Source: Planctomycetota bacterium (GTDB lineage Bacteria > Planctomycetota > Phycisphaerae > Phycisphaerales > Phycisphaeraceae). From it: 64,000 nucleotides of DNA. The notes beneath the pieces were generated by a model. It had not been told where the DNA came from, did no database searches, and saw only the letters and a list, made by a program, of their open reading frames with translations. The stretch lies in the NCBI GenBank assembly GCA_026386955.1, contig JAPLMQ010000313.1, positions 1-64,000 on the forward strand, in the 5' to 3' direction. Of this stretch, positions 17,746 to 48,134 are shown one piece after another (position 1 is the stretch's first letter; the number at the start of each line of letters is the position of its first letter). A program made the position numbers and the translations under genes.

Positions 17746-17854
17746 AGCGCACAGCGCGACGATCGCCCCCCGCCCACGACTCCATCAACCACACGACCAC
17801 AATCCTCCGCGTCCATCCGCCTTCTTCGTTTCACCTGAATTCCACGAGAAAAAC

Positions 17855-18682
17855 ATGCCCTCCTTCCTCCGCCTCTCCGCTCTCCTGACGCTCCTCCTCT
17901 GCGCCGCCGCGCAGGCCAACATCACCGTCGACCTCGAGGACCACGCCCTCGCCCCCAACTCCTTCTTCAACGGCGACACCGGCCTCTCCAACAACGACGG
18001 CTTCTCCTCCCACGGCGGCTTCTTCAACAACTCCTTCAGCACCGACTTCGGCGGCTACTGGTCCGGCTGGGCCCTCTCCAACATCGTTGACAAGACCACC
18101 CCTGGCTTCGGCAACCAATACGCCGCTTACCCCGGCGGCGGGGCCGGCAACGGTTCGGCCGCCTTCGCGGGCGGGAACTACGCCGTCACCTTCATCCCCT
18201 ACCCCAACGGCTCGTTCATCGACCTCCCCTCGGGCTACGCGGTGACCTCCACCCGCGTCGCCAACACCACCTACACCGCCCTCTCCATGCGCGACGGCGA
18301 CTCCTTCGCCAAGAAGTTCGGCGGCCCCACCGGCAACGACCCCGACTTCTTCTCCCTCACCATCACCGGCTTTTCCCAGCCCGGCGCGGGCGGTGCCGTC
18401 ACCGGCTCGGCGACGATCGTCCTCGCCGATTACCGCGCCGCCGACAACGCGCTCGACTTCATCCTCGCCGACTGGAGTCTGCTCGATCTCTCCGGCCTGG
18501 GCCACGCGCGGTCGCTGGGCTTCTCCGTCGACTCCAGCGACATGGGCCCGTTCGGGGTCAACACGCCCGCCTACGTGGCGCTCGACAACCTCGAGCTCAA
18601 GGCCGTGCCCGAGCCCGCGTCGGCGGGGCTGCTGGCGCTGGGCCTCGCCGGCGTCCTGGTCCGCCGTCGCCGCCAAGGCTGA
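17855..18682 (+). CDS. DUF4465-type PEP-CTERM protein, putative corrinoid-binding
   Basis: A 275-aa secreted protein. A signal peptide (MPSFLRLSALLTLLLCAAAQA) is followed by the DUF4465 pattern: DLEDHALAPNSFFNG, SWxGWALSN-like YWSGWALSNIVDKTTPG, NQYAAYPGGG, KKFGGPTGNDPDFFSLTITG, LADYRAADNALDFILADW and FGVNTPAYVALDNL. The tail is PEP-CTERM (VPEPASAGLLALGLAGVLV then RRRRQG). The family occurs in B12-regulated loci, and I recall Bacteroides BtuH, a B12-binding surface lipoprotein, as related; this needs checking. Here a PEP-CTERM anchor replaces the lipid. It lies 109 bases after its partner with no promoter seen between, and a terminator follows, making a two-gene riboswitch operon. Confidence 0.82.
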   Translation: MPSFLRLSALLTLLLCAAAQANITVDLEDHALAPNSFFNGDTGLSNNDGFSSHGGFFNNSFSTDFGGYWSGWALSNIVDKTTPGFGNQYAAYPGGGAGNGSAAFAGGNYAVTFIPYPNGSFIDLPSGYAVTSTRVANTTYTALSMRDGDSFAKKFGGPTGNDPDFFSLTITGFSQPGAGGAVTGSATIVLADYRAADNALDFILADWSLLDLSGLGHARSLGFSVDSSDMGPFGVNTPAYVALDNLELKAVPEPASAGLLALGLAGVLVRRRRQG

Positions 18683-28545: not shown

Positions 28546-29169
28546 ATGGAGAGCCTTATGGGACCGAGCCAAACCCCGCCGCCAAGCCAACCCGGACAGC
28601 CCGGCGCGTCCCCCCGCGCCGCGGGCCTGCGCCGCCGGCGACGCCGCTCGGGCTTCACGCTCATCGAGGCGGCCCTGACCACGGTCATCGTGGGCACGGG
28701 CGTGCTCTCGATCGTCGCCGCCCAGCAGGCCTATCACCGCAAGAACGACTGGTCGCAGAAGGTCGGCACCGCCGTGCTGCTCGCCAATGAGCTGCGCGAG
28801 CTGACGCTCTCGCTGCCGGTCTACGACCCGCTCAACGGCACCGCGACGCTGGGCCCGCGGTCGGACCAGACCACGGTCGCCAGCTACGACGACGTCTGCG
28901 ACTTCGCGGGAGCCGTCACCTCGGGCGTCGGCGCGGGGCTGACCTTCAACCCGCCCATCAACGCCCTGCGCCAGCCGATCTCCAACATGGCAGGCTGGTC
29001 GCAGCAGATCAAGGTCGCCAACGTCCTTCCCGACAACATCGGCTCGACCTTCACGCAGCCGCTGGGCACGACCGACCTGGTGCGCGTGACCGTCACGATC
29101 AACTACACGAATCCCAACAACAACCAGACCATGACGCTGCTGACCACCTCCTGGGTGGTCGGCAAATGA
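28546..29169 (+). CDS. PilV-like minor prepilin
   Basis: A 207-aa protein with a long Pro/Arg-rich cytoplasmic leader (residues 1-33) ending SG|FTLIEAALTTVIVGTGVLSIVAAQQAY, the prepilin peptidase site and hydrophobic helix. The globular part has RVTVTINYTNPNNNQTMTLLTTSWVVGK, like the C-terminal strands of PilV-type minor pilins. ATG 28546 or 28558 could be used. Its stop overlaps the next start (ATGA), so it is coupled to the PilX-like gene. Confidence 0.75.
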   Translation: MESLMGPSQTPPPSQPGQPGASPRAAGLRRRRRRSGFTLIEAALTTVIVGTGVLSIVAAQQAYHRKNDWSQKVGTAVLLANELRELTLSLPVYDPLNGTATLGPRSDQTTVASYDDVCDFAGAVTSGVGAGLTFNPPINALRQPISNMAGWSQQIKVANVLPDNIGSTFTQPLGTTDLVRVTVTINYTNPNNNQTMTLLTTSWVVGK

Positions 29170-31523
29170 ATGTCCCCGGGCGGCCGATCGCCCGGCGGGT
29201 GGGAGCCTCGGTGAGACGATCCAAGGGGCACGCAAGGACTCAAGCCATGAGCCATCGCAGCGCCTCGGAAACCCAGACGCCGGCCTCGCCGGCGCAATCC
29301 CGCCTGGCGCAGCCCCGCCCGGCTGCGCGCCGCCGCGCCCGCGCACGCCAATCCGGTGCCGCGGCCATCCTCGCGATGATGTTCCTGGTGATCTTCGCCT
29401 CCCTGGCGGCGGCGATGTCGATCGTCGCCCAGGGCAACCTCTCCTCCGCCGACAGCAACTACAAGGTCCAGCGCTCGCTCGCCTCCGCGGAGACCGGCCT
29501 GCGATTCCTGATCTACCGCATCAACAAGGTCTCCACCGGCGTCACCACGACCAAGGGCGCAGTCACCTCCGCCAACGCCACCACCTTGTGGACCCAGCTC
29601 GCCACCTCGCTCTCGACCTCGCTCTCGGGCGAGCTGAACAACCTCGCCGAGCCGACGCTGAGCAACGGCGTCCTCTCCATTGGGCCGATCTCCGTCGCCT
29701 CGGGCCAGCCCACGTTCCGGGCCACGCTCACGCCCCACCCGATCGCCGGCGAGAACTACAGCAGCGCCTACTACCAGCGGCCGCCCTACAGCCAGATGAC
29801 CCCGGCCGTCTCCGCGGCGGCGCCGCTCGACGCGACCTGGGTCCGCGTCAAGGTCTGGTCCGCCGACGGCGCGACCGGCCACCAGGTCACCCGCTCGATC
29901 CAGGTCGACTTCAAGCTCGACAAGAAGATCAAGTACGCCCTGCTCTCCAAGAGCCGCGTCATGATCGGGCGCAACGTCATGATCTCCGGCCCGGTGGGCA
30001 GCAAGTTCACCGAGACCAACCTGACCAACGGTCACCCGATCCAGGTCCTCAGCGACTTCGGCGGGCTCGACAGCACCCTCGACGCCTCGCTGGCGACCTT
30101 CTACAACACGCTCACCACCAACGACAAGAACGGCGACAACCGCATCAACCTCGCCGACGCCAACGAGACCGCCGGCATCACCAACCCCACCCAGTACGAC
30201 ACCAACGGCGACGGCTTCATCGACGACTACGACTTCTTCCTCGCCCGCTTCGACTCCAACGGCGACAAGAAGCTCTCCTCCACCGAGCTCAACACCGCCA
30301 GCAACGTCACCGCCGCCCAGCTCATGGCGATGATCGACAAGTTCGGCGCCACCACCCGCGCCGGCTACAACGACGGCTTCATCGACAACAGCGACCGCTA
30401 CGCCAAGATCCAGGGGCAGGTCCTCCTCACCGCCGACATGGCCTCCTGGCAGGCCGGCGCCGCGGCGGGGAGCTACCACAACTACGTGCAGGGCCCCATC
30501 GTCCCCGACCGCAACGCCTCCCCGATCGTCTTCCAGTCCTCCGACCTCAACCAGTGGAACCTCAACGCCTCGGACTTCGACGTCTCGAGCTTCCGCACGC
30601 TCGCTTCGGGCGACCTGGCCGCCCAGGCGACCCAGCAGGCGGCGCAGTACGACGCCAACAACCCCAACTCCCCGCGCCCGCTGGGCACGCAGGTCCACGA
30701 GTCCGTGCCCTACGGCGCCGCCCACCCCTACGACTACTACGACCGCCCCGTCTACGAGAACATGACCTTCACCGACGTGAAGATCCCCAAGGGCTCCAAC
30801 GCCCTGTTCAAGAACTGCAAGTTCATCGGCTGCACCTTCGTCGAGACCACCACCGCCAACACCGACCCGAACTTCAACTACGTCGGCATGCAGCTCGCCG
30901 ATGGCACGCTCAAGCACGCCGACAAGTCCGCCACCGTCGGCGGGCAGACCGTCACCGACACCAAGCCCCTGAGCAACAACATCCGCTTCGACAGCTGCAA
31001 GTTCGAGGGCGCGGTCGTCACCGACGTGACCGACACCTTCACCGTCGCCCGCAACAAGCTCAGCTTCACCGGCCAGACGACCTTCGACCCCGCCGCGGCC
31101 AGCCTCTCGTCCACGCAGAAGGCCCTCTACGCCAAGTCGTCGCTGATGGCCCCGAACTACTCGGTCGAGATCGGCACGTTCAACAACCCCGCCGACGCCG
31201 GGCAGAACGTCACGCTCACCGGCACGATCGTCGGCGGCGTGATCGACATGCGTGGCCAGGTCACCGTCGACGGCACGCTGCTGACGACCTTCCAGCCCGT
31301 GAGCAACACCGGGCCGGTCCTGGGCAGCACGAGCCCGAACTACAATACCACGCTGGGCTACTTCCCCTCGGCCACGGGCGACCTCGAGGCCGAGGCCCCC
31401 ACTGGCCCGGGCCTGGGCAACATCCGCATCCGCTACAACGCAACCCGTGCGCTGCCCGACGGGATCAACGGCCCCATCCAGTTCACCCCGACCTACACCA
31501 CCTACGTCGAAGGCGGCAACTGA
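29166..31523 (+). CDS. large PilX-like pilus protein with EF-hand-type calcium loops
   Basis: A 785-aa protein. After a basic leader, SGAAAILAMMFLVIFASLAAAMSIVAQGNL (about 62-90) is a PilX-type N-terminal membrane helix lacking the classic FTLIE. Residues about 318-410 hold at least three D-x-N-G-D loops (DKNGDNRINLAD, DTNGDGFIDDYD, DSNGDKKLSSTE) and a fourth weaker NDGFIDNSD, as in EF-hand or dockerin calcium sites. The C-terminal half reads as beta-helix/pentapeptide-like (FKNCKFIGCTFVE, IRFDSCKFEGAVVTD). It may be a calcium-responsive pilus-tip or priming protein. It is four-base coupled to the PilV-like gene. An internal start at 29247 is also possible. Confidence 0.7.
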   Translation: MNVPGRPIARRVGASVRRSKGHARTQAMSHRSASETQTPASPAQSRLAQPRPAARRRARARQSGAAAILAMMFLVIFASLAAAMSIVAQGNLSSADSNYKVQRSLASAETGLRFLIYRINKVSTGVTTTKGAVTSANATTLWTQLATSLSTSLSGELNNLAEPTLSNGVLSIGPISVASGQPTFRATLTPHPIAGENYSSAYYQRPPYSQMTPAVSAAAPLDATWVRVKVWSADGATGHQVTRSIQVDFKLDKKIKYALLSKSRVMIGRNVMISGPVGSKFTETNLTNGHPIQVLSDFGGLDSTLDASLATFYNTLTTNDKNGDNRINLADANETAGITNPTQYDTNGDGFIDDYDFFLARFDSNGDKKLSSTELNTASNVTAAQLMAMIDKFGATTRAGYNDGFIDNSDRYAKIQGQVLLTADMASWQAGAAAGSYHNYVQGPIVPDRNASPIVFQSSDLNQWNLNASDFDVSSFRTLASGDLAAQATQQAAQYDANNPNSPRPLGTQVHESVPYGAAHPYDYYDRPVYENMTFTDVKIPKGSNALFKNCKFIGCTFVETTTANTDPNFNYVGMQLADGTLKHADKSATVGGQTVTDTKPLSNNIRFDSCKFEGAVVTDVTDTFTVARNKLSFTGQTTFDPAAASLSSTQKALYAKSSLMAPNYSVEIGTFNNPADAGQNVTLTGTIVGGVIDMRGQVTVDGTLLTTFQPVSNTGPVLGSTSPNYNTTLGYFPSATGDLEAEAPTGPGLGNIRIRYNATRALPDGINGPIQFTPTYTTYVEGGN

Positions 31524-35790: not shown

Positions 35791-37377
35791 ATGACGACCG
35801 TGACCGCCCCCATCGCCGCCCGCCTCCAGCCCCCCGTGGCCGCGGCCGACGCCTTCGGCTACCTCCCGCGGTCGCGCTGGATGCCCTTGGCCTTCGCCCT
35901 CCCCGCGGCGATCTGCGGCCTCTCCTGGGCCGCCGACGGCGAGACCTCCATCACCGATGCGGGCATGCTCCTCCTCACCGTCCTGTGCATCTTCTACTTC
36001 ATCCTCGAAGTCTTCTGCTTCCCCAAGCGGTTCGGCATCGGCGGCATGCTCGTCTTCGGCGGCACGCTCGTCTGGTTCTGCCACGACTACCTCACCCACT
36101 GGTACGGCACCGACCCCGCCCTCCAGGGCGACGGCTTCACCTCCGCCACCCTTGCCAAGGCCGGGTTCTACTACAGCCTCTGGGTCATGCTCATGACCAT
36201 CGGGCTGCTCGTGCCCGTCCACCGCTGGGCGACCAAGCCGCTCTCGGTCGTCCCCGAGACCGGGTCCGACGGCTTCTACTTCATCATCATCATCGCCTGC
36301 TTCATCCTGGGCCTCTTCCCCTACATGTTCCTCGCCGTCGAGCCCATGCACCTGGCGATCTACCACCAGATGACCGGCGGGCGCAACTTCAGCACCGAAT
36401 GGATCGTCGGCCGGTCGGGCAACGCCAACTACAACTGGGGCGCCTACTTCACGCTCTTCTTCGACGCGGCGATGGGCGGCGTGCAGGTCGCCGCGTTCTA
36501 CGCCTTCTTCTTCCGGGCCAGCCTCGCCCGCAAGCTGGTCTGCTGGGCGATCTGGTTCTTCTGGCTGGCGATGAACGTCGGCACGGGCACCCGCGGGCTG
36601 GTCGTCGCGATGGTCGTGCCGGTGATGGCGATGATCTTCCTGAAATACCAGGCCCGCGCCGCCGCCATGCGGGTCATCGTCAAGCGGGCCTACATCTACA
36701 CCGGCATCGTCGCCCTGCTCCTGCTCCTGCTCGTCCAGATGCAGATCAAGTACCGCAACACCGGGTTCAACAACTTCTCCGTCAACGACGCCGTGGAGAA
36801 CAAGGTCGCGGGCAACATGATGTTCAGCGAGGGGCTCACCGCGATGCAGCTCGTCCCCTCGCAGCACGACTTCTTCTCCGACCTCTTCCCGGGCGCCAAG
36901 TTCATCCTGCCCATCCCCGACCTGGCCTACCGCCTCCTCATCACGCCCATCCCCCGCGCCCTCTGGCACGACAAGCCCATCGCGCCCGACCGCTCCTTCG
37001 CCTGGTACAACCTCATGGTCACCGGCGGCACCGGCGACGGCGTCGAGGGCACCACCTGCTCGGCCAGCGTCGTCGGGCAGTTCTACATGAACTACGGCAT
37101 CTGGGGCGTCATCCAAGGCGGGCTGCTCATGGGCTGGATCATCCGCGTCGTCGAGAAGGGGCTGCAGGAGGCCCAGGGACGACCGATGACCATCATCCTG
37201 AGCCTCGGCGCCGCCGCCTGGCTCTTCCGCTGTTTCCGCACGCTCAACTTCAACAACATCATCGGGCTGATCCTCTTCGCCATGCTCTTGGCCGTGGTCA
37301 GCGCCGCCTACAAGCAGTTCTTCGTCACCGGCGGGTCGAACGAGTCCCCCGGCGGCCTCGTGGACGTGCGCCGGTGA
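35791..37377 (+). CDS. Wzy-like polysaccharide polymerase, polytopic membrane protein
   Basis: A 528-aa protein with about 10-12 hydrophobic segments, e.g. LAFALPAAICGLSWA, LLLTVLCIFYFILEVF, FYFIIIIACFILGLFPYMF, AYIYTGIVALLLLLLVQM and a final pair near 440-510. A large loop carries NVGTGTRGLVVAM and TPIPRALWHDKPIAPD; such R-rich periplasmic loops and the PR-x-W-x-x-K element are seen in O-antigen polymerase-like proteins. It probably joins repeat units of an exopolysaccharide in the inner membrane. Its stop overlaps the GTG start of the glycosyltransferase, so they are coupled. Confidence 0.7.
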   Translation: MTTVTAPIAARLQPPVAAADAFGYLPRSRWMPLAFALPAAICGLSWAADGETSITDAGMLLLTVLCIFYFILEVFCFPKRFGIGGMLVFGGTLVWFCHDYLTHWYGTDPALQGDGFTSATLAKAGFYYSLWVMLMTIGLLVPVHRWATKPLSVVPETGSDGFYFIIIIACFILGLFPYMFLAVEPMHLAIYHQMTGGRNFSTEWIVGRSGNANYNWGAYFTLFFDAAMGGVQVAAFYAFFFRASLARKLVCWAIWFFWLAMNVGTGTRGLVVAMVVPVMAMIFLKYQARAAAMRVIVKRAYIYTGIVALLLLLLVQMQIKYRNTGFNNFSVNDAVENKVAGNMMFSEGLTAMQLVPSQHDFFSDLFPGAKFILPIPDLAYRLLITPIPRALWHDKPIAPDRSFAWYNLMVTGGTGDGVEGTTCSASVVGQFYMNYGIWGVIQGGLLMGWIIRVVEKGLQEAQGRPMTIILSLGAAAWLFRCFRTLNFNNIIGLILFAMLLAVVSAAYKQFFVTGGSNESPGGLVDVRR

Positions 37378-38570
37378 ACTGGATCGTCAGCCAGATCGGC
37401 CGGCGTCAGCACTACGCCATCCCCCGCGCCCTGCTTCGCCGGGGCATGCTCTCCCGCTTCTACACCGACGCCTGGGTCGACGCCTCGCGCCCGCTGCTCG
37501 CCCGCGCGCCCGGCGGGCTCCGCGCCTTGGCGAGCCGGCATCACCCCGAGATGCCCCGCGGCAAGGTCGTCGGCTTCACCGCCCACTCCGTCTACGACGC
37601 GGTCTACGACCGGCTCAAAAACCCCTACGCCACGCCCGCCTCCGCCTCGCTCCGCTACCGCGACCTCGGCCGGCGCTTCGCCCTCGCCACCGCCAGGCAC
37701 ATCCTCGCCCGCAAGTTCGACCCGGCGCAGACCGTCTTCTTCGGCTTCAACACCAGCAGCCTCGAAGTCATCCGCCCGCTCCGCGAGCGAGGCGTGCTCA
37801 CCATCGTCGACCAGATCGACCCCGCGAAGGTCGAGGAGGACCTGCTCATCGCCGAAGGGGAGAAATGGCCGGGATGGGAAGCGACCCCCGGCCGGGCGTC
37901 GGACGAATACTGGGCACGCATGCGCGACGAATGGGCTGCGGCCCACGTGGTCTACGTCAATTCGCTCTGGACCAAGTCGGCCCTGCTCAAGCAGGGCGTC
38001 CCCGCGGAGAAGATCGTCGTCGTCCCCATCGCCTTCGAGGCGCACGGCGCCGGTTCTGATTCCGGGGGCGGCAACGAGCCCGCGCCGGCTTCGCGCGCCG
38101 CCGACCGCGACCGCCCGTTGGTCGTGCTCTGGCTGGGCGCCGTGGTCATCCGCAAGGGCATCCAGTACCTCATCGAGGCCGCCCGCCGGCTCAAGGACGC
38201 CAATATCCGCTTCGAGATCTTCGCCGGGCGGGCCTTCGGCGACCAGGTCGCCGCCGCCTACCGCCAGGCCGACGTCTTTGTCCTCCCCACGCTCTCGGAC
38301 GGCTTCGCCATCACGCAGCTCGAGGCGATGGGCCACGGGTTGCCGGTGGTCACCACGGGGAACTGCGGCGAGGTCGTGGAGGACGGCGTGGACGGGCTGA
38401 TCGTCCCCGCGGGCGACGGCGAAGCCCTCGCCGCGGCGTTCGCCAAGCTCGAGGCCGACCGCCCGCGCATCCGCGAGATGTCGCAGAACGCCTTGAAGAA
38501 GGCGGGTTGCTTCACGCTCGACCGGATCGGCGCGGCGCTGGAGGAGATCGCCCGCACGCGCAAGGTTTGA
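37374..38570 (+). CDS. GT4-family glycosyltransferase
   Basis: A 398-aa GT-B glycosyltransferase starting at GTG 37374 (GTGA overlap with the polymerase stop). The C-terminal nucleotide-sugar domain has VLWLGAVVIRKGIQYLIEAARRL, ADVFVLPTLSDGFAITQLEAMGHGLPVVTT and the E-x7-E-like region. Between FEIF and GRAFGDQ (near 38218) the stretch normally carrying a VGP-type strand and about 20 more residues seems missing, which could be a deletion or lineage variation. It probably adds a sugar to the exopolysaccharide repeat unit at the cytoplasmic face. Confidence 0.82.
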   Translation: MNWIVSQIGRRQHYAIPRALLRRGMLSRFYTDAWVDASRPLLARAPGGLRALASRHHPEMPRGKVVGFTAHSVYDAVYDRLKNPYATPASASLRYRDLGRRFALATARHILARKFDPAQTVFFGFNTSSLEVIRPLRERGVLTIVDQIDPAKVEEDLLIAEGEKWPGWEATPGRASDEYWARMRDEWAAAHVVYVNSLWTKSALLKQGVPAEKIVVVPIAFEAHGAGSDSGGGNEPAPASRAADRDRPLVVLWLGAVVIRKGIQYLIEAARRLKDANIRFEIFAGRAFGDQVAAAYRQADVFVLPTLSDGFAITQLEAMGHGLPVVTTGNCGEVVEDGVDGLIVPAGDGEALAAAFAKLEADRPRIREMSQNALKKAGCFTLDRIGAALEEIARTRKV

Positions 38571-38582
38571 GCGTTCTCGAAA

Positions 38583-38603
38583 CCCAGGCACGCGGTGCCT
38601 GGG
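38583..38603. terminator. bidirectional terminator between convergent genes
   Basis: A perfect 9-bp stem (CCCAGGCAC, 38583-38591, with GTGCCTGGG, 38595-38603) is flanked by GAAA and CTTT, so either strand could use it. It sits 12 bases after the glycosyltransferase and 15 bases from the acyltransferase end. Confidence 0.7.
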
Positions 38604-38618
38604 CTTTGCGGCGCGGGT

Positions 38619-39854
38619 TCAGTTCGGAGCTGTCTGCGGCGCTGAAACCTTCTTCTTGGTCGGGCGCGTGAACGGCCACTCCACCACGAAGTGCGCCAGC
38701 CACGCGAAGAGCAAAATCCCCCCCACGCATGGCAGCAGGTAGCCGAAGTGCTCGGGCAGATGCCCCGTCGGCGACCGGCTCATCAGCCAGCCCGCGAGGA
38801 AGACCAGGATCGGCATGTGGCAGACGTAGAGCGTGTACGACATGTCGCCCAGCGGCTTGAGCACGTGGAGGACCCACAGCGACCCGTCTCGCTGCTGCCA
38901 CGCGAAGCCTGAGGCGATCAACCCCACGAAGCCCAGGGCCCAGCAGGTGTCGGGCAACACCCACGCCACGCTGGCCGGGAGCAACAGGACCAACGGCGCC
39001 AGCGCCGCCATCGGCACGCGGATGCGGCCTGCTTGGATGCGCCCGGCGTAGACCTCCGCGAGCAGCACGCCCATCCACCAGATGCCCATCATCGTCATCA
39101 CCTGTTGGGGCAGCTTCAGCGGCCAATATTCCGGATGCGCGCTGCCCAGCACCAAGGCCGCCATCAGCGCCGTCGCCGCGGGGATCGACCGTCGCGTGAC
39201 CCACCAGAAGAGCGGGAAGAACATGTAGAACCACCACTCGTACATCAGCGACCAGAGCGGGCCGTCGGAGCCGTAGGTCCGCACGTAGACGCCCATCGTG
39301 AAGGCGAGGTTGCCCAGCAGCGTGGTCGCCCGCAGGTCGGGGCCGGGGACCACGGCGTCGGGCGGGGCGAGCGTCGCGTTGATGTTGAGGTAAGGCGTCT
39401 GGGCGGAGTAGATCGCGTAGCCCTTGGCCGCGCCCGCGGAATCGAGCGCGAAGGTCAGCAGGAGCGCCAGCAGCATCGGCGGGTAAAGCCGTTTGGCCCG
39501 GCGGTAGACGTAGCCCACGTAGCCGAACTTCGCCCTGGCCGGGTCGGCCGCGAATTCGCGGGCGTAGCGCAGGTGGATCACGAAGCCCGAGAGGACGAAG
39601 AAGAAGAGCACGCCCTCGTGCCCGTAGCGGAAGGCCGAGAGGGCATAGAAGACCGCCTTGGAGAAGGCCGAATAACGCTCGGGGTGGAGCTGAAAGCCGT
39701 AGGGCGAGCCCTCGTGGAGGAGGTAGCGCGCGTGGTGGAGCAGGACGTAGAAGGCCGCGAGCCCGCGGAGCCCGTCGAGGAAGGCCGTCGGCGACGGCTT
39801 GGGCGGGGTTGGCTTCGATTGGCCTGGATTGGATTGGCTTGGATGGGTGGTCAT
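38619..39854 (-). CDS. acyltransferase 3 family membrane protein (OafA-like)
   Basis: A 411-aa polytopic protein of the acyltransferase-3 family that O-acetylates or otherwise acylates surface sugars. The start region AFLDGLRGLAAFYVLLHHARY holds the conserved H, and FFFVLSGFVIHLRYAREF contains the FVLSGF motif with the basic stretch after it. LWSLMYEWWFYMFFPLFWW matches the family's SL-x-x-E-x-x-FY-x-x-FP block. About ten transmembrane segments are seen. ATG 39854 is preferred. The Pro/Ser-rich N-terminus is encoded by a low-complexity TTGG-rich tract at 39811-39850. Confidence 0.88.
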   Translation of the reverse strand: MTTHPSQSNPGQSKPTPPKPSPTAFLDGLRGLAAFYVLLHHARYLLHEGSPYGFQLHPERYSAFSKAVFYALSAFRYGHEGVLFFFVLSGFVIHLRYAREFAADPARAKFGYVGYVYRRAKRLYPPMLLALLLTFALDSAGAAKGYAIYSAQTPYLNINATLAPPDAVVPGPDLRATTLLGNLAFTMGVYVRTYGSDGPLWSLMYEWWFYMFFPLFWWVTRRSIPAATALMAALVLGSAHPEYWPLKLPQQVMTMMGIWWMGVLLAEVYAGRIQAGRIRVPMAALAPLVLLLPASVAWVLPDTCWALGFVGLIASGFAWQQRDGSLWVLHVLKPLGDMSYTLYVCHMPILVFLAGWLMSRSPTGHLPEHFGYLLPCVGGILLFAWLAHFVVEWPFTRPTKKKVSAPQTAPN

Positions 39855-39900
39855 GCGCCCGGCCGAGTCCTTCGCGAAGCAGGTCGGCCCGCACGCCGCG

Positions 39901-41793
39901 TCATCGCCACCAGTTGGTGGCAGGGTCCACATAACGATCGGTCATCGACCGCATCAGGCCCGATTTGGCCTTGATGTCCCACCACGAAACCATCGGCAGA
40001 ATCTTCTCGCGCATGCAGAACTGCCAGACCGCCTCCGGGGGCTGGCTGGCCCGCACCTGGGCGATCGCGACCATGCCGGGCATCAGCCAGCGCATGATCC
40101 GCACGTCCTCGAGGTTCGTGTAGGGGCCGAAGTCGAGCATGCGCTTCTGTTCGTCATATCGGACCTCGGTGTAGAAGCCCGAGTAGGGCAGCATCACGTC
40201 GACGCCGAACTCGGCGTAGGTGAGGCAGTTCACGCCCTTCTCGCGCATCTTCTGGCGGAGCAGGGCCATGATCCTCACGTCGTCGGGCATGTTGCCGAAG
40301 GTGTCGAGGTAGAAGTCGGTGACGCCCATGTCGATCACCGTGTTGAAGCGGCTCCACATCGCCTCCATCGCCGCGGCGTCGGTCGAGCTGACGCGCCGGG
40401 TGGTGTCCTGCGTCGCCGAGGCGGGCACGACCACGTCGCCCGGGCGCCCGAGCATCCCGACCTTGAGCCCGCGCGACTTCATGCCCGCGATCAGGGCCGG
40501 CACGTTGGCCTTCACCGACGCGGGGAAGACGTCGAAGTCCGGGCGGTACATCGCCCCGCGGGTGTTGAAGCCCTGCATGTCCCAGAAAATGCAGCCCTGG
40601 GCCCCCGCCATCTGCAGCGGGTCGCCCACGCCCGTGAGGAACTGCCTCACGCCCGAGTCGAGGTCGAAGCGCGTCATGTCCGCGGCGAAGCCCAGCGGGT
40701 TCGCGGGCGTGATCCGCTTGTCGGCGCTGGCGGCGCACATCCCCACCGGCCGGGCGTCGCCCGTGTAGAACGCCTGCGGAAACGTCTTGTCGAACTCGGC
40801 CTTGTAGGGCTCGAGCAGGTGCGACCATTCGCCGTTGGCGCTCAGGCGGAGCGTCATGCGCACAACCCCCGCCTGCCCCGCGTCGATGCCCTGGCGGATC
40901 ATGTAGATCAGCCTCCAGCTCTTCGAACCGGTGGTGTCGTAGTTGCCCATGAGGAGCTTGCTGGCCATCGCCGCGTCGAGCGGGACGAAGGCGAGGTTGA
41001 CCGTGCCGCCGCGGAGCATCCACGCGCCGAGTGGGCTGTAATACGACGGATGGGCGATGTCCCACTGGCGCGACTGGAAGTAGGACGGGTGGCGCCGGCT
41101 GACGCGCGTGTCGGCCGGGTTTTCAGGAAGCCGCACCGTCAGCCCCGAGAAGGTCATGTGCTTCAGCGCCTTCCCGTTCGCGCTATGGTTGGTCACCTCG
41201 ACGCGCACGGTCATGTCCTCGCCGCGGGCGACGTAGTCGTACACGGCCTTCACGTCGCGGTGCTCGTGCACGACGCGCCAGGTGTCGTTGCCCAGCGCCT
41301 CGACGGTCGAGCGCAGCACCGGCCCGACGGCGACGGCCTGGGCGTCGGCGGGGAAATACTCCGCCGCGTCGACGAGGCTCCACCCGCCGTCGGCGACGGC
41401 CTGGCCGTTGAGTTGGACCGAGGCGATGCCCGCGGCGGTCACCTCGTAACGCACGGCCGAAACGACGGAGGCCCGCGAGACGGATGCAGCGGCGGGGATG
41501 ATGCTGGCGGAGGCGTTCGTCGGGACCGGGGCGGATTTGTCGGGCGAAGCGGCGGGCATGGTGACGACGATCGGAGCCGGATTGGGGCGCGCTGCTTCAG
41601 GCGCGGTGGGCTGCCGCGCCGTGACCGGCGAAGGCGTCGACCCCGCGGGATCGGGCCACGGAACCACCTCCGGCCTGGAAAAGACCATGGAAACGCAGCC
41701 CGGCAGCGCGGCAAGCGTCGCCAGCAATGCGAACGAGCAGACAAGCACCGAGAGGCCGAGCGTCCGGCGAACGCGGCGGGGGCGATGGGTCAT
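39901..41793 (-). CDS. exported lipoprotein, paralogue A of an unknown glycosidase-like family
   Basis: A 630-aa protein. The lipobox LAALPGC (Cys about 33) predicts a lipoprotein. A Pro/Ala-rich linker follows, then a beta-rich N-terminal domain (YEVTAAGIASVQLNGQ; AVYDYVARGEDMTVRVEV), then a likely TIM-barrel half with QGCIFWDMQGFNTRGAMYRPDFDVFP, GLKVGMLGRPGDVV and MGVTDFYLDTFGNMPDD (about residue 493). D-x-Y-L-D at a barrel strand end recalls GH27/31/36 nucleophile strands, but no family is matched. The next gene upstream is a clear paralogue. It lies in the polysaccharide cluster, so a sugar-processing role is inferred. Confidence 0.7.
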   Translation of the reverse strand: MTHRPRRVRRTLGLSVLVCSFALLATLAALPGCVSMVFSRPEVVPWPDPAGSTPSPVTARQPTAPEAARPNPAPIVVTMPAASPDKSAPVPTNASASIIPAAASVSRASVVSAVRYEVTAAGIASVQLNGQAVADGGWSLVDAAEYFPADAQAVAVGPVLRSTVEALGNDTWRVVHEHRDVKAVYDYVARGEDMTVRVEVTNHSANGKALKHMTFSGLTVRLPENPADTRVSRRHPSYFQSRQWDIAHPSYYSPLGAWMLRGGTVNLAFVPLDAAMASKLLMGNYDTTGSKSWRLIYMIRQGIDAGQAGVVRMTLRLSANGEWSHLLEPYKAEFDKTFPQAFYTGDARPVGMCAASADKRITPANPLGFAADMTRFDLDSGVRQFLTGVGDPLQMAGAQGCIFWDMQGFNTRGAMYRPDFDVFPASVKANVPALIAGMKSRGLKVGMLGRPGDVVVPASATQDTTRRVSSTDAAAMEAMWSRFNTVIDMGVTDFYLDTFGNMPDDVRIMALLRQKMREKGVNCLTYAEFGVDVMLPYSGFYTEVRYDEQKRMLDFGPYTNLEDVRIMRWLMPGMVAIAQVRASQPPEAVWQFCMREKILPMVSWWDIKAKSGLMRSMTDRYVDPATNWWR

Positions 41794-41933
41794 GGCGGCT
41801 TCCTCGGGCGACGGGGCGCGAACGCATGCGCTTCGGTCGACCGGCAAGTTTAGCACCATGGCCATGCGAAGGACGAAATGAATCGGACGGACCATGCTCG
41901 ACCGAAGATCGCCTCAAGCCCCCAAAAGCGCCA

Positions 41934-41964
41934 CCGGCCCGGACAGGGCGTCTGTCCGGGCCGG
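41934..41964 (-). terminator. terminator after paralogue B
   Basis: A perfect 13-bp GC stem (41934-41946 with 41952-41964), read on the minus strand, is followed by TGGCGCTTTT. It lies 77 bases after the stop of the 42041 gene, separating the two paralogues transcriptionally. Confidence 0.7.
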
Positions 41965-42040
41965 GGTCGCATGGTGCTGGGCCGGGCCTCGTGGGCCCGG
42001 AGTGATTTCGCGTGGGTCAGGCGGACTCGATCCTCGCCGC

Positions 42041-44041
42041 TCAGTCGAACAGCGGAGCCACTTCCGCGACCTGGGGCGTGTTGGGCGTCAGGTCCTTCCA
42101 CCAGTTGGTCGTCGGGTCGACGAACTCGGCGGTGATGCTCTTGAGCAGCTCGTTCTTGGCCTTGGCGTCCCAGTAGGGCACCAGGGGAAGGACCTTCTCC
42201 TGGAGGCAGAAGCGGTAGACGTCGGCCGCGGGGCGGTCCGACGCGCGGACCTGGGCCATGGTGATCATGTTGGGCATGAGCCAGCGGAAGATGCGCATGT
42301 CCTCGAGCCCGATGTAGGGGCCGAAGACGAACTGCTGGGCGCCGGTGTCCCAGGAGCACTCGGTGTAGAAGCCGGTGTAGGGGAGCATCACGTCGACGCC
42401 GAACTCGGCGAAGGTCTGGATGTTCTGCCCGGTGGCGTTCAGCTTGGCGCGGATCTGGCGCATGATGTTCACGTCGTCGGGCATGTTGCCGAAGGTGTCG
42501 AGGTAGAAGTCGGTGACGCCCCAGCCGATGACGGTGTTGAAGCGGTTCCACATGGCCGCCATCTGCGCGGAGTCCTTCGAGGAGATGCGCTGGGTGGTGT
42601 CGGTGGTGGGCGAGGCGGGCACGACGATCTCGCCCGGGCGGGCGAGCATGCCCACGCGCAGGCCCTTGGCATTCATGCCGGCGATGAGCTTGGGCACGTT
42701 GGCGGCCACCTCGGGGGGGAAGACGTCGAAGTCCGGGCGGTACATCGCCCCGCGGGGGTTGAAGCCCTGCATGTCCCAGAAGATCACGCCCTGCGCGCCC
42801 GCGGCCTGGAGCCAGGGCGTGTAGTTGTTGAGGTAGGCCCCGACGCCCTTGGTCACGCCCTGGTCAAGGTCGAAGCGCGTGCCCGGGCCGGCGAAGCCGT
42901 GCGGGTTGTCGGGCGTGATGCGCGACATCGCCGAGCAGGCGGTCATGCCCAGCGGGCGGGCGTCGCCTTGGTAGTGCGTCTGCGTGAAGGTCTGCTGGTA
43001 GTCGTTCTTGTACGGCTCGAGCATGTGGGCCCACGCGCCGTTGCTGCTGAAGCGCATGGTCATCTTCACCGTCCGGCTCTCGCCCGCGGGGATGTCCTGG
43101 TCGATCAGGTAGATCAGGCTCCACTTGGTGAAGTCGGTCGCGTCATAGTTCGAGACCAGCACCTTGGGCGTGAAGGGGATGCCCAGCGGGGCGAACGAGA
43201 AGTTCACGGGCCCGGCGCGGAGCATCCAAGCGCCCAGCGGGTTGTAGTACGAGGGATGGGCGATGTCCCACCCGCGCGTGCGGAAATAGGACCAGAAATG
43301 CCGGTCGACGCGCTTGTCGACCGGGACGCTGGGGAACTTCAGGGTCAGGCCCTTGAAGGCCATGTGCTTCATCGGCTTGCCGTCGAGGCTCTGGTTGGCG
43401 ACGTTCGCGGTGACGGTGATGTCCTCGCCGTTGGCGACGTAGTCGTAGACGACCTGCACTTCCTTGAACTTGTGGACGACGCGCCAGGTGGTCGGGCTGG
43501 TCTGCTGGGACGAGACCTGCTGGACGGCCCCGAGCGTGACCGCGCCGGAGTCGGGCGCGAAGTATTCGTTGGAGTCCCAGAACGTCCACCCGCCGGTGGC
43601 GACCGAGAGGCCGTTGAGCTCGACCGCGGCGAGCCCGGCCCCGGTGACGGTGAAATTCACCGAATCGGTCGAGGCCTCGGGCGTGGGGCCGCCGGAGGGG
43701 AGGACGGTCGGGGTCGTGGTGGGCGGCGGGGCGACGACGTTCATGGACGACGGCGGCGCGACGGGGGGAGCGCCGATGACCATCGCCCGCGAGGGGGCGA
43801 TGGGCGGGGCGGCGATGACGACGGCGGCGTTGGCGGCGATGCGCGGGGTGGGCTGCGTCGTGGGGGCGACCGGAGCGTAGTTGCTTTGGCTCTTCACGAA
43901 GGCGGGGCCGGAGCGCAGCGGCGGGTTGGACTGGGCCAACGCCGCGGGTTGCCCCACGAGCGCCAGCGCCACGAGGCCTGCGGCGACCCACCCGGCCTTC
44001 CAGCGCCCCATCGTTCGACTTCGATGATTCTGAATCGCCAT
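42041..44041 (-). CDS. exported protein, paralogue B of the same glycosidase-like family
   Basis: A 666-aa protein with a signal peptide (WKAGWVAAGLVALALVGQPAALAQ) rather than a lipobox, so secreted or periplasmic. A low-complexity Pro/Ala/Thr linker precedes the same domains as its neighbour: VYDYVANGEDITV, GWDIAHPSYYNPLGAWMLRAG, QGVIFWDMQGFNPRGAMYRPDFDVFP and WGVTDFYLDTFGNMPDD (about residue 509). A strong AGGAGG site precedes ATG 44041, unusual in this window, suggesting high translation. The pair arose by duplication, and one copy gained or lost a lipid anchor. Confidence 0.7.
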   Translation of the reverse strand: MAIQNHRSRTMGRWKAGWVAAGLVALALVGQPAALAQSNPPLRSGPAFVKSQSNYAPVAPTTQPTPRIAANAAVVIAAPPIAPSRAMVIGAPPVAPPSSMNVVAPPPTTTPTVLPSGGPTPEASTDSVNFTVTGAGLAAVELNGLSVATGGWTFWDSNEYFAPDSGAVTLGAVQQVSSQQTSPTTWRVVHKFKEVQVVYDYVANGEDITVTANVANQSLDGKPMKHMAFKGLTLKFPSVPVDKRVDRHFWSYFRTRGWDIAHPSYYNPLGAWMLRAGPVNFSFAPLGIPFTPKVLVSNYDATDFTKWSLIYLIDQDIPAGESRTVKMTMRFSSNGAWAHMLEPYKNDYQQTFTQTHYQGDARPLGMTACSAMSRITPDNPHGFAGPGTRFDLDQGVTKGVGAYLNNYTPWLQAAGAQGVIFWDMQGFNPRGAMYRPDFDVFPPEVAANVPKLIAGMNAKGLRVGMLARPGEIVVPASPTTDTTQRISSKDSAQMAAMWNRFNTVIGWGVTDFYLDTFGNMPDDVNIMRQIRAKLNATGQNIQTFAEFGVDVMLPYTGFYTECSWDTGAQQFVFGPYIGLEDMRIFRWLMPNMITMAQVRASDRPAADVYRFCLQEKVLPLVPYWDAKAKNELLKSITAEFVDPTTNWWKDLTPNTPQVAEVAPLFD

Positions 44042-44375
44042 GGTTTCCTCCTGCCGACACAAAGTCCCTGGTCGTCCCTGGTTTGCCTGTCCACAGGCAC
44101 GTCATAGCCAACGATACGGACCGGCGAATTCCCAATCCGCCGACGACAATCTCTCGGTTTCCCCCGATGCCCGGGTCTGCCGAATCGGCGCAACCGGAGC
44201 CGGCGGCGCAACCCGTGCCGGCCGGCGCAGACGGCCACCTGAACCCATGGGATAGGAGTGTGCGGAGGGCGAAATTATCGCGCCGCCGCCGAGAGGCGCT
44301 GTTCGGGCCTGGATGAGGTTGGACAAATTTTTCGGGCTTTGGCGGGAAAAGGCTTGCACCACACCGGCGCGTCGC
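44042..44375. other. intergenic region upstream of paralogue B
   Basis: No gene is seen in 334 bases. It must contain the minus-strand promoter of the 42041 gene; GATAAT read on the minus strand near 44271-44276 is one weak -10 candidate. Confidence 0.35.
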
Positions 44376-45416
44376 TCAGCCCTTCGCGGCCTTGCGGTCA
44401 AGATGCTTCTGGAAAGCCGCGGCCAGCGAACGAGCCGACTGCTCCCACGTGAGGTTGGCCAGGACGTGCTTCTGCAACTCTCCCGTGCGCGGCTGGTCCC
44501 ACGCCTTCTTCAACGCCTCGCGGATCGACGGGACGCTGTAAGGATCCACATACTGCGTCCAAGGGCCGAAATAATCGGGCGGGCCGCCCATCTTCGTGAT
44601 CACCACCGACGCCCCTTGCGCCGCGGCCTCGAGCGCCACCAGCCCGGTGCCCTCGTTGTGCGAAGGCAGGGCAAAGACCTTGCACGCGGCGTAGAGGTCC
44701 TGCAGCGTCGTGTACTCGACGAAGCCCATGAGCCGGACGCGCGGGTTCTTCGCCGCCAAGGCCTTGATCCTCTCCAGTTCCTTCCCGGGCACCGCCCGCC
44801 CCGCGATCACCAGCGGGTAAGGCGTCTGGTTGATCGCCTCGATGAGCCGCAGGAGGTTCTTGCGCGCGTCGGTGTAGACGCTCACGTGCAGCACGTAGTC
44901 CTCGGCGAAGCCCAGGCGCTGGCGGGCCTGCGCGGCGTCGAGCGGCGTCGGGGGGGTCATGCCGTTGAGCACGATCTCGATGCCGGTCTTCGCCGGGTCG
45001 ATGCCCAGGCCGTGGATGAGCCGCTGCTTCTCGCTCTCCGACCGGGCGATCACCAGGTCGCTCCGCCGCGACTGCATGCGGTGCACGCCCTGGTTGGTCA
45101 GCAGGTTGCCGGTGAGCGAGCCGGCGACCGCGGCGGCGCGGTAGAGCCAGTAGGGCGTGTTGGAGTCGAGCGCGGGGACGAGGGAGACCACGCCGACCTT
45201 CGGCGGCCGGCGGTAGGCGCCGACGATGTTGCCGAACGCGCCCTCGAAGATGTGCAGCACGTCGAGTCCGTCGGGGAACTCGTTCCAGGGGCTCAGGCGC
45301 ACGACTTCGTGCCCGAGGGCCTCGAGCGCCGCCACTTGGTGCAGGGCCTGGACCTTGCGCCCGTCGCCGCGCGGGACGACCGCGTATCCCCCGGGCATCA
45401 GCCAGCCGATCTTCAT
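44376..45416 (-). CDS. GT4-family glycosyltransferase
   Basis: A 346-aa GT-B enzyme. The N-terminal domain MKIGWLMPGGYAVVPRGDGRKVQALHQVAALEALGHEVV is a typical acceptor-side start. The C-terminal domain has YVLHVSVYTDARKNLLRLIEAI, LVIAGRAVPG and ACKVFALPSHNEGTGLVALEAAAQGASVV, the E-x7-E region binding the nucleotide sugar. Start 45416 (MKIGWL) is preferred to the ORF's upstream Met. It follows the next glycosyltransferase on the same strand by 81 bases and probably belongs to the same polysaccharide pathway. Confidence 0.88.
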   Translation of the reverse strand: MKIGWLMPGGYAVVPRGDGRKVQALHQVAALEALGHEVVRLSPWNEFPDGLDVLHIFEGAFGNIVGAYRRPPKVGVVSLVPALDSNTPYWLYRAAAVAGSLTGNLLTNQGVHRMQSRRSDLVIARSESEKQRLIHGLGIDPAKTGIEIVLNGMTPPTPLDAAQARQRLGFAEDYVLHVSVYTDARKNLLRLIEAINQTPYPLVIAGRAVPGKELERIKALAAKNPRVRLMGFVEYTTLQDLYAACKVFALPSHNEGTGLVALEAAAQGASVVITKMGGPPDYFGPWTQYVDPYSVPSIREALKKAWDQPRTGELQKHVLANLTWEQSARSLAAAFQKHLDRKAAKG

Positions 45417-45497
45417 TGCCGCCCGTTTCCCGCCGCGGCCGGACCCTTCAAGCAAGGGTGGGGGCGCGGCGAACTCATCCGCCGCGGGCCAGGCCCG

Positions 45498-46787
45498 TCA
45501 CGCTACCGGCTCGGGCTGCTTCGCCCCGCCGCTGGCGGACATCCTCGCCCTGCGCGCGCTGAGCACGCTTTCGACTGCCTCGCGCACCGTGCGCTCGACA
45601 CGGGGGAAAGTGTAATGAAGTTTGACCTGCTCGTAACCGCGGCGGGCCATCGCCTGGCGGGCGGGGAAATCGTTCAGCAGGCGGACGACCTCGCGGGCGA
45701 ACTCCTTGGGGTCGTCCGCGATCGCGATCGCCTCGCCCTTGGGGAGCGTCGCCTCGTACCCGCGCCAGGAGTGCGAAGTGGAGACGCAGGCGCGCCCGTG
45801 CAGGAGCGACTCGATCACCTTGATCTTCGTTCCAGCGCCGTCGTTGACCGGGGAGACCGTCAGGGCCGAGGCGGCGTAGGCGGCGCCGACGCTGTCGACC
45901 CGTCCGACGGGCTCGAGGCCGGGCGTCGCCTTGCAGCGCTGGAGCAGGTCGGGGCTCATCCCGCCCCCGACGGTGCGGAAGACCGTCGCGGGCCTGAGCC
46001 GGCGGATCTCGGGCCAGACCAGGTCGAGGAACCACTCCAGCCCGCGGATGTTGGGGCGGTGGCCCATCGAGGCGACGTAGGTGACGACGTTCGACGCGGC
46101 GGAGTCGGGCGCGACCGGGGCGTCGGCCAACTCGGGGGGGAACGGGATGTTGGGAAGCGTGCTGACGCGGTTGTGCCCGATCAACTCGCGGTCGCGGTCG
46201 CTGGCGACGAAGACGTGGGCGCACTGGCGGAGCAGCCGGGCCTCGATCGCCTCGATCTGCGTGAGCTGTCGCCCCAAGGCCCAATCATGGATCGGCCCGC
46301 GGGCCCCGGCGGCGCGGCGGGAACGGTAGACCACCGTGTCGAGGTCGTCCGCGTCGAGGATCACCGGCGCGATGTCGAACGAGCCCGCCTGCGCGGTGAT
46401 GCGCAGGAAACGCCCGACGATCAGGTCGTACGGCTTCTCCAGCGCCCGGCGGCGGACCCAGGAGGAGACGTTGGGATCGGGCTGGTAGTAGAGGCCTTGG
46501 TGGCCAAGGTGATGGGCCAACGTGGCGACGACCCGCGGGTGGAGCGGACGGATCGCCCGCCAAGGCCAGTGCATCGACCGCCTGATCGGGGCGATCTTGG
46601 CGGCCAGGTCCCAATCGCGGCGGAGGACATCCTCCACCTCGGGCGTGATGCGATCGGGCGGGACGAGCAGGAGCATCTCGACGTCGCCGCAGGCGCGCAA
46701 CGCGCGCTGGATATTCGTGCTCCGCTGGGCCCCGCCGTAATCCGTCGGCCAGGGGGGATTGTCCGTCACATACAAAATGCGGGTCAT
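45498..46787 (-). CDS. GT4/GT1-type glycosyltransferase
   Basis: A 429-aa GT-B enzyme. TRILYVTDNPPWPTDYGGAQRSTNIQRAL is the N-terminal Rossmann start with the Gly-rich acceptor loop, VILDADDLDTVVYRSRR lies at mid-protein, and VSPVNDGAGTKIKVIESLLHGRACVST is the donor-binding motif typical of PEP-CTERM/XrtA-associated and exopolysaccharide glycosyltransferases. GGGGAG precedes the ATG. It is the first gene of a two-gene minus-strand set with the 44376 gene. Confidence 0.88.
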   Translation of the reverse strand: MTRILYVTDNPPWPTDYGGAQRSTNIQRALRACGDVEMLLLVPPDRITPEVEDVLRRDWDLAAKIAPIRRSMHWPWRAIRPLHPRVVATLAHHLGHQGLYYQPDPNVSSWVRRRALEKPYDLIVGRFLRITAQAGSFDIAPVILDADDLDTVVYRSRRAAGARGPIHDWALGRQLTQIEAIEARLLRQCAHVFVASDRDRELIGHNRVSTLPNIPFPPELADAPVAPDSAASNVVTYVASMGHRPNIRGLEWFLDLVWPEIRRLRPATVFRTVGGGMSPDLLQRCKATPGLEPVGRVDSVGAAYAASALTVSPVNDGAGTKIKVIESLLHGRACVSTSHSWRGYEATLPKGEAIAIADDPKEFAREVVRLLNDFPARQAMARRGYEQVKLHYTFPRVERTVREAVESVLSARRARMSASGGAKQPEPVA

Positions 46788-47120
46788 TCACTCCCCGACC
46801 GGTGTCGCCGGCCGGACTCCTGCAACAAATTGGAATTCGGCGGTGACTCGATGGATGGTAGGCCCATCATCTGCCGGAATGCGTTTCATTCCAAATGTCG
46901 GGGGAGAATTGCAAACCATGTGCCGCACGTTCGATCCTTGGGTGAACAGGGTCCGTCAGCATGGCGCAATCAAAAAACCGCGGCCTTTCGGTCGCGGTTC
47001 GCAAGTTTTGGGAAGTGAGAAGGCTTGGAGGGGTTGCCGGGAATGCGCAGAGATCGCGCGGCCGGGCAGGGCGCGAGGCATCGACAACTGCATCAGGGCA
47101 CGGAATTCGGGGTGCGGAGC
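46788..47120. other. intergenic region between glycosyltransferase and epimerase
   Basis: Apart from the terminator at 46972-46999 no feature was recognised in 333 bases. The part next to 46787 should hold the glycosyltransferase promoter; no clear hexamers are seen. Confidence 0.4.
46972..46999 (-). terminator. Rho-independent terminator of the epimerase gene
   Basis: On the minus strand a stem AACCGCG/CGCGGTT (arms 46993-46999 and 46976-46982), with an inner CC/GG pair and a GAAA-type loop, is followed by TTTTTT (46977 down to 46972). It lies about 120 bases after the epimerase stop. Confidence 0.75.
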
Positions 47121-48134
47121 TCAGCCGGCGGACTTCAGGCCCGAAGCGGTGCGGGTGCCGTACTTGGCCCGGTAGCGGTCGTAGATCCAGGCGTAGGTGC
47201 GCTCCAGCCCGTCGCGCAGGCGGGTCGAGGGCTCCCAACCCAGGTGCTGCTGGATCAGCGTGTTGTCGGAGTTCCGCCCCGCGACGCCCTTGGGGGCCGA
47301 GAGGTCGTAATGGCGCTCCAGCCGGATGCCCGCGATCTCCTCGACGATGTCGACCAACTGGTTGATGCTCACCAGTTCGCTCGAGCCGAGGTTCAACGGC
47401 TCGACGATGTCGCTGGCGGTGATGCGGGCGATGCCTTCGAGGCAGTCGTCGACGTACATGAACGAGCGCGTCTGGTTGCCGTCGCCCCAGATCTCGATCC
47501 GCCGGTTGTTGGTGAAGACGGAGTGGATCACCTTGCGGCAGATCGCGGCCGGCGCCTTCTCGCGCCCGCCCTCCCAGGTGCCGAAGGGGCCGTAGACGTT
47601 GTGGAACCGCGCGATCCGCGTGGCGAAGCCGAAGTCCTCGCGGAAGTGGCGGCACATGCGCTCGGAGAAGAGCTTCTCCCAGCCGTAGCCGTCCTCGGGC
47701 ATGGCGGGGTAGGCGTCGGCCTCGCGCAGGGGGGTGACGTTGGCGTCGCGCTGCTTCTCGGCGTTGTAGACGCAGGCCGAGGAGGCGTAGAAGTAGCGCT
47801 CGACCCCCGCGTTCCGCGAGGCGAGCAGCAGGTGCGTGTTGATCAGCACCGAGAGCATGCACAGGGCCTTGTTGTTCTCGATGAAGCCCATGCCGCCCAT
47901 GTCGGCCGCGAGGTTGTAGACCTCGCCCGCGCCGCGCACGGCCTCGACGCAGTCCTCGCGCCGGCCCAGGTCGAGGCAGATGTTCTCCGCCCCGTTGAAG
48001 CGCTGGAACCACTCGCCCATGGGCTTGACGTCGACGGCCCGCACCGGCCCGCGGTTCTGCCGAAGCAGGTCCGAAACCAGGTGGCCGCCGATGAATCCGC
48101 CCGCGCCGCAGACGACGATGTATTTTTCCGCCAT
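47121..48134 (-). CDS. GDP-mannose 3,5-epimerase-like NAD-dependent epimerase
   Basis: A 337-aa extended short-chain dehydrogenase. VVCGAGGFIGGHLV is the NAD-binding GxxGxxG. MGGMGFIENNKA, SSACVYNAEKQ (with the Cys proposed as acid/base in plant enzymes) and the YGWEKLFSE Y-x3-K are hallmarks of GDP-D-mannose 3,5-epimerase, which makes GDP-L-galactose and GDP-L-gulose. WGDGNQTRSFMYVDDC is the sugar-binding region. It probably supplies a rare L-sugar donor to the adjacent glycosyltransferases. A related UDP- or GDP-sugar epimerase remains possible. Confidence 0.82.
   Translation of the reverse strand: MAEKYIVVCGAGGFIGGHLVSDLLRQNRGPVRAVDVKPMGEWFQRFNGAENICLDLGRREDCVEAVRGAGEVYNLAADMGGMGFIENNKALCMLSVLINTHLLLASRNAGVERYFYASSACVYNAEKQRDANVTPLREADAYPAMPEDGYGWEKLFSERMCRHFREDFGFATRIARFHNVYGPFGTWEGGREKAPAAICRKVIHSVFTNNRRIEIWGDGNQTRSFMYVDDCLEGIARITASDIVEPLNLGSSELVSINQLVDIVEEIAGIRLERHYDLSAPKGVAGRNSDNTLIQQHLGWEPSTRLRDGLERTYAWIYDRYRAKYGTRTASGLKSAG

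Follow-up and report, generated by a model that had tools for sequence, protein, structure and literature searches.

In the glycoside hydrolase (GH) families GH27 and GH31 the nucleophile is carried on strand β4 of the barrel and the proton donor on β6 (PMC1249566). Subfamilies GH97a/e differ from GH97b-d in the β4 Asp, which was lost in GH97a/e (Naumoff 2005, PMC1249566), and GH101 and GH129 (GHL1) have a GH13-like barrel (PMC8106489). Genes for hydrolases or lyases are common in exopolysaccharide operons, and PelA is a hydrolase encoded within one of these (PMC9894940). In PelA ~60 residues separate the published Asp160 from Glu223 (or Glu218) (PMC9894940, PMC12054363), and the published Asp/Glu pairs of GH166, GH114, GH135 and GH191 endo-galactosaminidases are separated by 26-69 residues (PMC12054363). 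Two adjacent genes, P0002 and P0001, were compared with these systems. They are located on a stretch of 64,000 nucleotides from a Planctomycetota bacterium (Phycisphaeraceae; contig JAPLMQ010000313.1, positions 1 to 64,000), the whole of which is referred to here as the window. From the models described below, the two proteins probably belong, as exported members, to a so far undescribed glycoside hydrolase (or transglycosidase) family with the build of the α-galactosidase superfamily, and would carry out retaining α cleavage by means of D522 and E553 (P0002 numbers) on a polysaccharide outside the cytoplasm.

Both genes are on the minus strand. P0002 (42041..44041) encodes 666 aa from the ATG at 44041, most likely the true start of an open reading frame (ORF) spanning 42041-44062, with the Shine-Dalgarno sequence AGGAGGA (44046..44052) four bases 5' of the ATG. 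P0001 (39901..41793) encodes 630 aa from the ATG at 41793, the likely start (MTHRPRRVRR...) of an ORF spanning 39901-41895, with GAGGAAG ahead of it. Codon-position GC values of the pair were 0.63/0.50/0.92 and 0.59/0.48/0.96, typical of genuine genes for both ORFs. The proteins are 56% identical across ~590 residues (P0002 69-657; E 1.5e-215), far above chance. The original prediction, made from the letters of the sequence, had described two paralogues with four common motifs, and these were present in the co-directional pair: VYDYVA-GED, WDIAHPSYY-PLGAWMLR, FWDMQGFN-RGAMYRPDFDVFP and VTDFYLDTFGNMPDD. A single letter of the second motif differed, P0001 reading QWDIAHPSYY where P0002 reads GWDIAHPSYY.

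P0002 residues 128-673 were modelled with AlphaFold2 using 21 sequences. The model (predicted local distance difference test, pLDDT, 87.1; predicted template-modelling score, pTM, 0.87) consists of an N-terminal β-supersandwich (residues 135-340; 43043..43660, minus strand) followed by a (β/α)8 barrel (residues 371-647; 42122..42952, minus strand). When the whole model was compared with the PDB using Foldseek, the best 12 matches, at E 1.2e-13 to 3.5e-11, were GH36 α-galactosidases and related galactosaminidases, after which came GH31, GH97 and GH13; the GH36, GH31 and GH97 matches together ranged from E 1e-13 to 1e-9, and 1zy9 (GH36) gave template-modelling (TM) scores of 0.51/0.52. Modelled by itself, the barrel (pLDDT 86, pTM 0.87) matched AmyB 4gkl first (E 4.9e-8), PelA of GH166 in places 2-4, and then TVA-II, GH36, GH31 and GlgE (E 5e-8 to 5e-6). 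A viral fold search gave partial matches only, to GH65/GH95-type viral proteins. The earlier guess of a GH27/31/36-like protein is thus supported by the predicted fold, which is a TIM barrel resembling GH-D and GH31 overall; neither a fold lacking such a barrel nor a known non-hydrolytic family emerged from the model and Foldseek comparison.

Among the residues that never vary in the alignment of 21 sequences (A3) are W429, R437, Y441, R442, R475, D488, D497, R507, D522, E553 and D557. On the barrel, with the faces delimited manually on the basis of DSSP, 19 of 29 invariant residues fell on the β-to-α (catalytic) face (expected 11, p 0.0014) and two in α-to-β loops. D522 (codon 42497..42499), the putative nucleophile, is at the end of β4, directly after strand 391-394 in model numbering; E553 (42404..42406), the putative acid/base, is at the C-terminal end of strand 422-425, the end of β5; and D557 (42392..42394) is a third invariant carboxylate after β5. 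The 19 remote relatives, too, keep E553 and D557 without exception. The corresponding residues of P0001, from the pair alignment, are D531 (40303..40305), E562 (40210..40212) and D566 (40198..40200), and the alignments also mark a YRPDFDV motif in the β2-α2 loop of P0002 (42722..42742; all codons on the minus strand). No invariant acid was found in or after β6 in the 21-sequence alignment, and none is conserved there in the distant set. The Asp of the D-x-Y-L-D strand had been likened to the nucleophile of GH27/31/36. Its place at the end of β4 and its invariance (21/21) agree with this, whereas the β6 donor of GH27 and GH31 has no conserved equivalent and the second carboxylates, E553 and D557, are found at β5. 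Because a conserved β6 acid is missing and the invariant partners are at β5, a β4-Asp/β5-Glu pair as in GH13 is the likelier arrangement in the model, and the active-site parallel shifts in that direction.

In such a site D522 would attack the anomeric carbon and E553 would serve as acid/base, while D557, R475 and the W429/YRPDFDV loop may shape the -1 subsite. The outcome would be retaining cleavage of an α-type glycosidic bond; an α linkage is predicted because the look-alikes, enzymes of GH13, GH31, GH36 and GH166, mostly act on α-D-type linkages.

Neither P0001 nor P0002 matched any entry when both were searched against Pfam, NCBIfam and the PDB sequences, and PDB sequence searches with the pair and with family alignments gave nothing significant. 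At E<=1 Pfam Melibiase was unmatched in P0001, P0002 and all 21 members of A3, and Alpha-amylase was unmatched in the same proteins. Among GH families in Pfam at this threshold the only match was GH114, in one member and at noise level (E 0.26). Apart from this and a weak TM1410 profile match over the β4 strand (E 0.13), no sequence match to GH166, GH114, GH135 or GH191 was obtained. The description of the family as unrecognised therefore stands for Pfam and NCBIfam as searched.

When P0002 alone was run against the genome contigs no relative was found, because single-protein patterns are too specific, and alignment A1 held no stretch conserved enough to scan with; relatives were recovered by scanning with alignment A2. 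Family members were present in 6 of 51 genomes of the same taxonomic family, 41 of 400 of the order and 12 of 392 of the phylum (the last at E 1e-10). A close-alignment scan of a species-representative genome collection gave 19 loci together with the finished chromosome of 'Planctomycetes bacterium syqfu', a cultured strain with one homologue (L035). The 19 loci belong to Phycisphaeraceae, Pirellulales and metagenome-assembled genomes (MAGs) labelled Armatimonadota, Abditibacteriota, Omnitrophota, Verrucomicrobiota and others; some of these labels may be wrong, as the tree places L050, labelled Nealsonbacteria, next to a sequence from Pirellulales. Judged by these sequences the family occurs across several bacterial phyla. 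Identity of the relatives was 21-34%. The tree pairs P0001 with P0002 as sisters (100/99), and a third, divergent copy from the same genome (L003, G000:C67) is attached to the two by a long branch (99/99). Between the family and a remote set of Phycisphaerales proteins, hhalign gave an alignment of 405 columns (probability 99.7%, E 3e-27). Adjacent pairs of distant members, ~2.2-2.5 kb apart, were seen in four contigs (G076:C171, G209:C29, G334:C101 and G338:C275), and tandem duplication is therefore recurrent in the superfamily. In a 2242-aa protein (L039:4090-10815) the family domain is C-terminal, after repeats resembling a β-propeller and bacterial Ig-like domains.

The original prediction had assigned a lipobox to one protein and a signal peptide with a strong ribosome-binding site to the other. 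The second assignment was retained: P0002 has AGGAGGA and, read by eye, a signal peptide (MAIQNHRSRTMGRWKAGWVAAGLVALALVGQPAALA, followed by Q; 43934..44041, minus strand) with cleavage between KAGWVAAGLVALALVGQPAALA and Q. The export signal of P0001 (41695..41793, minus strand) ends in LPGC67, an off-consensus lipobox; on checking against the pattern [LVI][ASTVI][GAS]C, its ALPGC failed, the Cys being present and the Pro at -2 breaking the pattern. A firm lipoprotein claim for P0001 was dropped on account of this Pro, and lipoprotein status is kept as a possibility; since LPGC misses the usual pattern, so are the 'anchored and free forms' proposed earlier. In both proteins a long Pro/Ala/Thr-rich linker joins the signal to the shared domain (P0002, 43661..43933, minus strand), and most relatives are without such a linker.

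The pair lies in a same-strand (minus) run of an NAD-dependent epimerase/dehydratase (47121..48134; PF01370), two GT4 glycosyltransferases (45498..46787, PF13692; 44376..45455, PF00534), P0002, P0001 and an acyltransferase-3 membrane protein (38619..39932; PF01757, E 5.6e-29). Facing the run on the plus strand are a GT4 glycosyltransferase (37434..38570; PF13692) and a polytopic membrane protein (35791..37377) with no Pfam match that by eye is like a Wzy/O-antigen polymerase. Since gaps of ~335 and ~247 bases flank P0002, a single operon is a possibility only. A strong GC-rich hairpin, CCCGGACAGACGCCCTGTCCGGG then GGTGGCGCTTTT, at 41925-41975 (minus strand), in the interval separating the two genes, is a possible terminator or attenuator; a promoter/terminator scan over 38500-47300 was at background level only.

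By analogy, this locus is consistent with a role like that of PelA in processing exopolysaccharide. The pair would work outside the cytoplasm on polysaccharide, possibly the product of the flanking glycosyltransferase and acyltransferase genes, as PelA does on Pel. The principal alternative concerns the substrate and leaves the enzyme part untouched: the pair may be a scavenging glycosidase for environmental polysaccharide that merely stands beside glycosyltransferase genes. This falls short of an even chance and is nonetheless a substantial contender, as several relatives have catabolic neighbours consistent with scavenging. A relative in an Omnitrophota MAG (L041) is in a run with GH35-, GH123-, GH2-like and MocA genes, and gene lengths match at L052. 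Other relatives adjoin a heparinase-like gene (L046) or a pectate-lyase-like gene (L048), and sialate acetylesterase-like, alkaline-ceramidase-like and MocA oxidoreductase genes are near the third copy (G000:C67:59898-61103) and L071. The pair in the window, by contrast, is inside the epimerase-to-acyltransferase run, with no catabolic gene found adjoining. In L035 the family gene is preceded by a methyltransferase gene and lies beside recJ, a layout matched in L034 and L036.

Several results weigh against a new family of retaining enzymes with a β4/β5 site that processes exopolysaccharide. Support for the exopolysaccharide role comes from a single locus. The fold matches have ~10% identity and moderate TM-scores (0.4-0.6). 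In the distant members L018 (850-3456) and L021 (544-2856) Gly occupies the β4 nucleophile position, the β5 Glu and Asp being kept. The hhalign probability was 37% to GH36 and 0.9% to GH13, and 1 in 20 block-shuffled controls per family scored high without explanation (133, 137), while another GH13 shuffle scored 30 against the real 25.9.

The hhalign comparisons were made with a GH36 profile built here from planctomycete sequences and with a GH13 profile compared likewise. The family scored 43 against GH36 (E 3.5e-4; 134 columns over β2-β5; 22 for the reversed profile); the register at β4 was blurred by a gap, and FYLD overlapped the FRLD of GH36. Against GH13, both near and remote sets aligned D522 with the nucleophile Asp and E553 with the β5 Glu, at noise-level scores (25.9 for the family); as shuffled controls exceed 25.9, this register is only suggestive. 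The preference of hhalign for GH36 over GH13 favours true clan GH-D-like enzymes, with the β4 Asp as nucleophile and a donor other than E553, for example a subfamily-specific acid of the β6 region such as E568 in the YxET strand, or D488 or D497 of the β3 loop. The lead of GH36, GH31 and GH97 in the whole-model Foldseek search and the Glu kept at position 568 in 15 of the 21 sequences point the same way. The six members of the L034-L039 clade nevertheless have N, I, V, S or R at that position, the distant set lacks a conserved β6 acid, and E553 and D557 are invariant throughout near and remote sets, so that a GH-D-like donor is judged unlikely.

It is also improbable that the proteins are transglycosidases or branching-type enzymes, remodelling the polymer instead of cutting it. 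A retaining architecture allows transfer, and CGTase, GlgE and the transglucosylase Agd31B are among the GH13/GH31 fold matches; the majority of fold matches are, however, hydrolases, and the sequence does not separate the two activities. Non-catalytic, sugar-binding or pseudoenzyme paralogues, to which the Gly at β4 in L018 and L021 might point, are very unlikely, as both window copies retain every invariant residue at 44% divergence.

Elsewhere in the window, a heparinase II/III-like polysaccharide lyase gene (PF07940; 12857-14812, minus strand) is located ~25 kb from the pair. The product of 17720-18682 (plus strand) is a DUF4465 protein that carries a PEP-CTERM sorting signal, and that of 29166-31523 (plus strand), after T2SSE and T2SSF genes, is a 785-aa pilus-assembly-like protein in which a Ca-binding stretch (DKNGDNRINLADANE...DTNGDGFIDDYD) resembles an EF-hand or dockerin.

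Returning to the preferred reading of exported retaining enzymes, proteins with no Pfam or NCBIfam match become a candidate CAZy family with named putative catalytic residues. It is suggested tentatively that they form a new GH family, from which a new clan might even grow, in which an α-galactosidase-type two-domain architecture would be combined with a GH13-type β4-Asp/β5-Glu site, across Planctomycetota and MAGs of other phyla and with a much more diverse remote branch in Phycisphaerales. If so, such a pair in an α-galactosidase-like architecture would bear on the relationship of clans GH-D and GH-H. If the polysaccharide that the pair processes is the strain's own, planctomycetes would have in it a counterpart to the PelA/PslG-type hydrolases of exopolysaccharide loci; if it is not, the large and still unassigned repertoire of degradative enzymes in Planctomycetota would gain an activity not recorded before.

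Among described systems, GH36 (clan GH-D; Thermotoga maritima GalA 1zy9, Lactobacillus brevis 3mi6) is alike in having an N-terminal β-supersandwich followed by a (β/α)8 barrel, an Asp at the end of β4 and weak profile similarity over β2-β5. Unlike GH36, the family has ~10% identity to it, no Melibiase match and no conserved β6 acid, and its barrel ends near the C-terminus, the model lacking a C-terminal β-domain. Filing as a GH-D member was rejected, given the unmatched Melibiase profile and the missing β6 acid/base. GH31 and GH97 have the same two-domain order and β4 Asp, but there is no sequence match and the second carboxylate differs; the loss of the β4 Asp in L018 and L021 parallels that in GH97a/e.

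GH13 (clan GH-H) is alike in that the bare barrel best matches a GH13-type amylase, AmyB 4gkl, and in the β4-Asp/β5-Glu pair. GH13 enzymes have an Arg two residues before the nucleophile, whereas the family has an invariant Tyr520 there (FYLD), and no conserved acid follows β7 in the 21-sequence alignment. With Alpha-amylase unmatched, the low hhalign probability, and the -2 Arg and β7 Asp missing, filing as GH13 was also rejected. In GH101/GH129 the Asp-then-Glu spacing is ~31-33 residues; these families gave no sequence match and were absent among the best 50 Foldseek matches listed. TM1410/GH191 is alike in the weak profile match over β4. PelA (GH166) differs in its Asp/Glu spacing of ~60, against 31 between D522 and E553, and had no supersandwich counterpart aligned; it resembles the family in its barrel, as found by Foldseek, and the spacing of 31 compares with 26-69 in published endo-galactosaminidase pairs.

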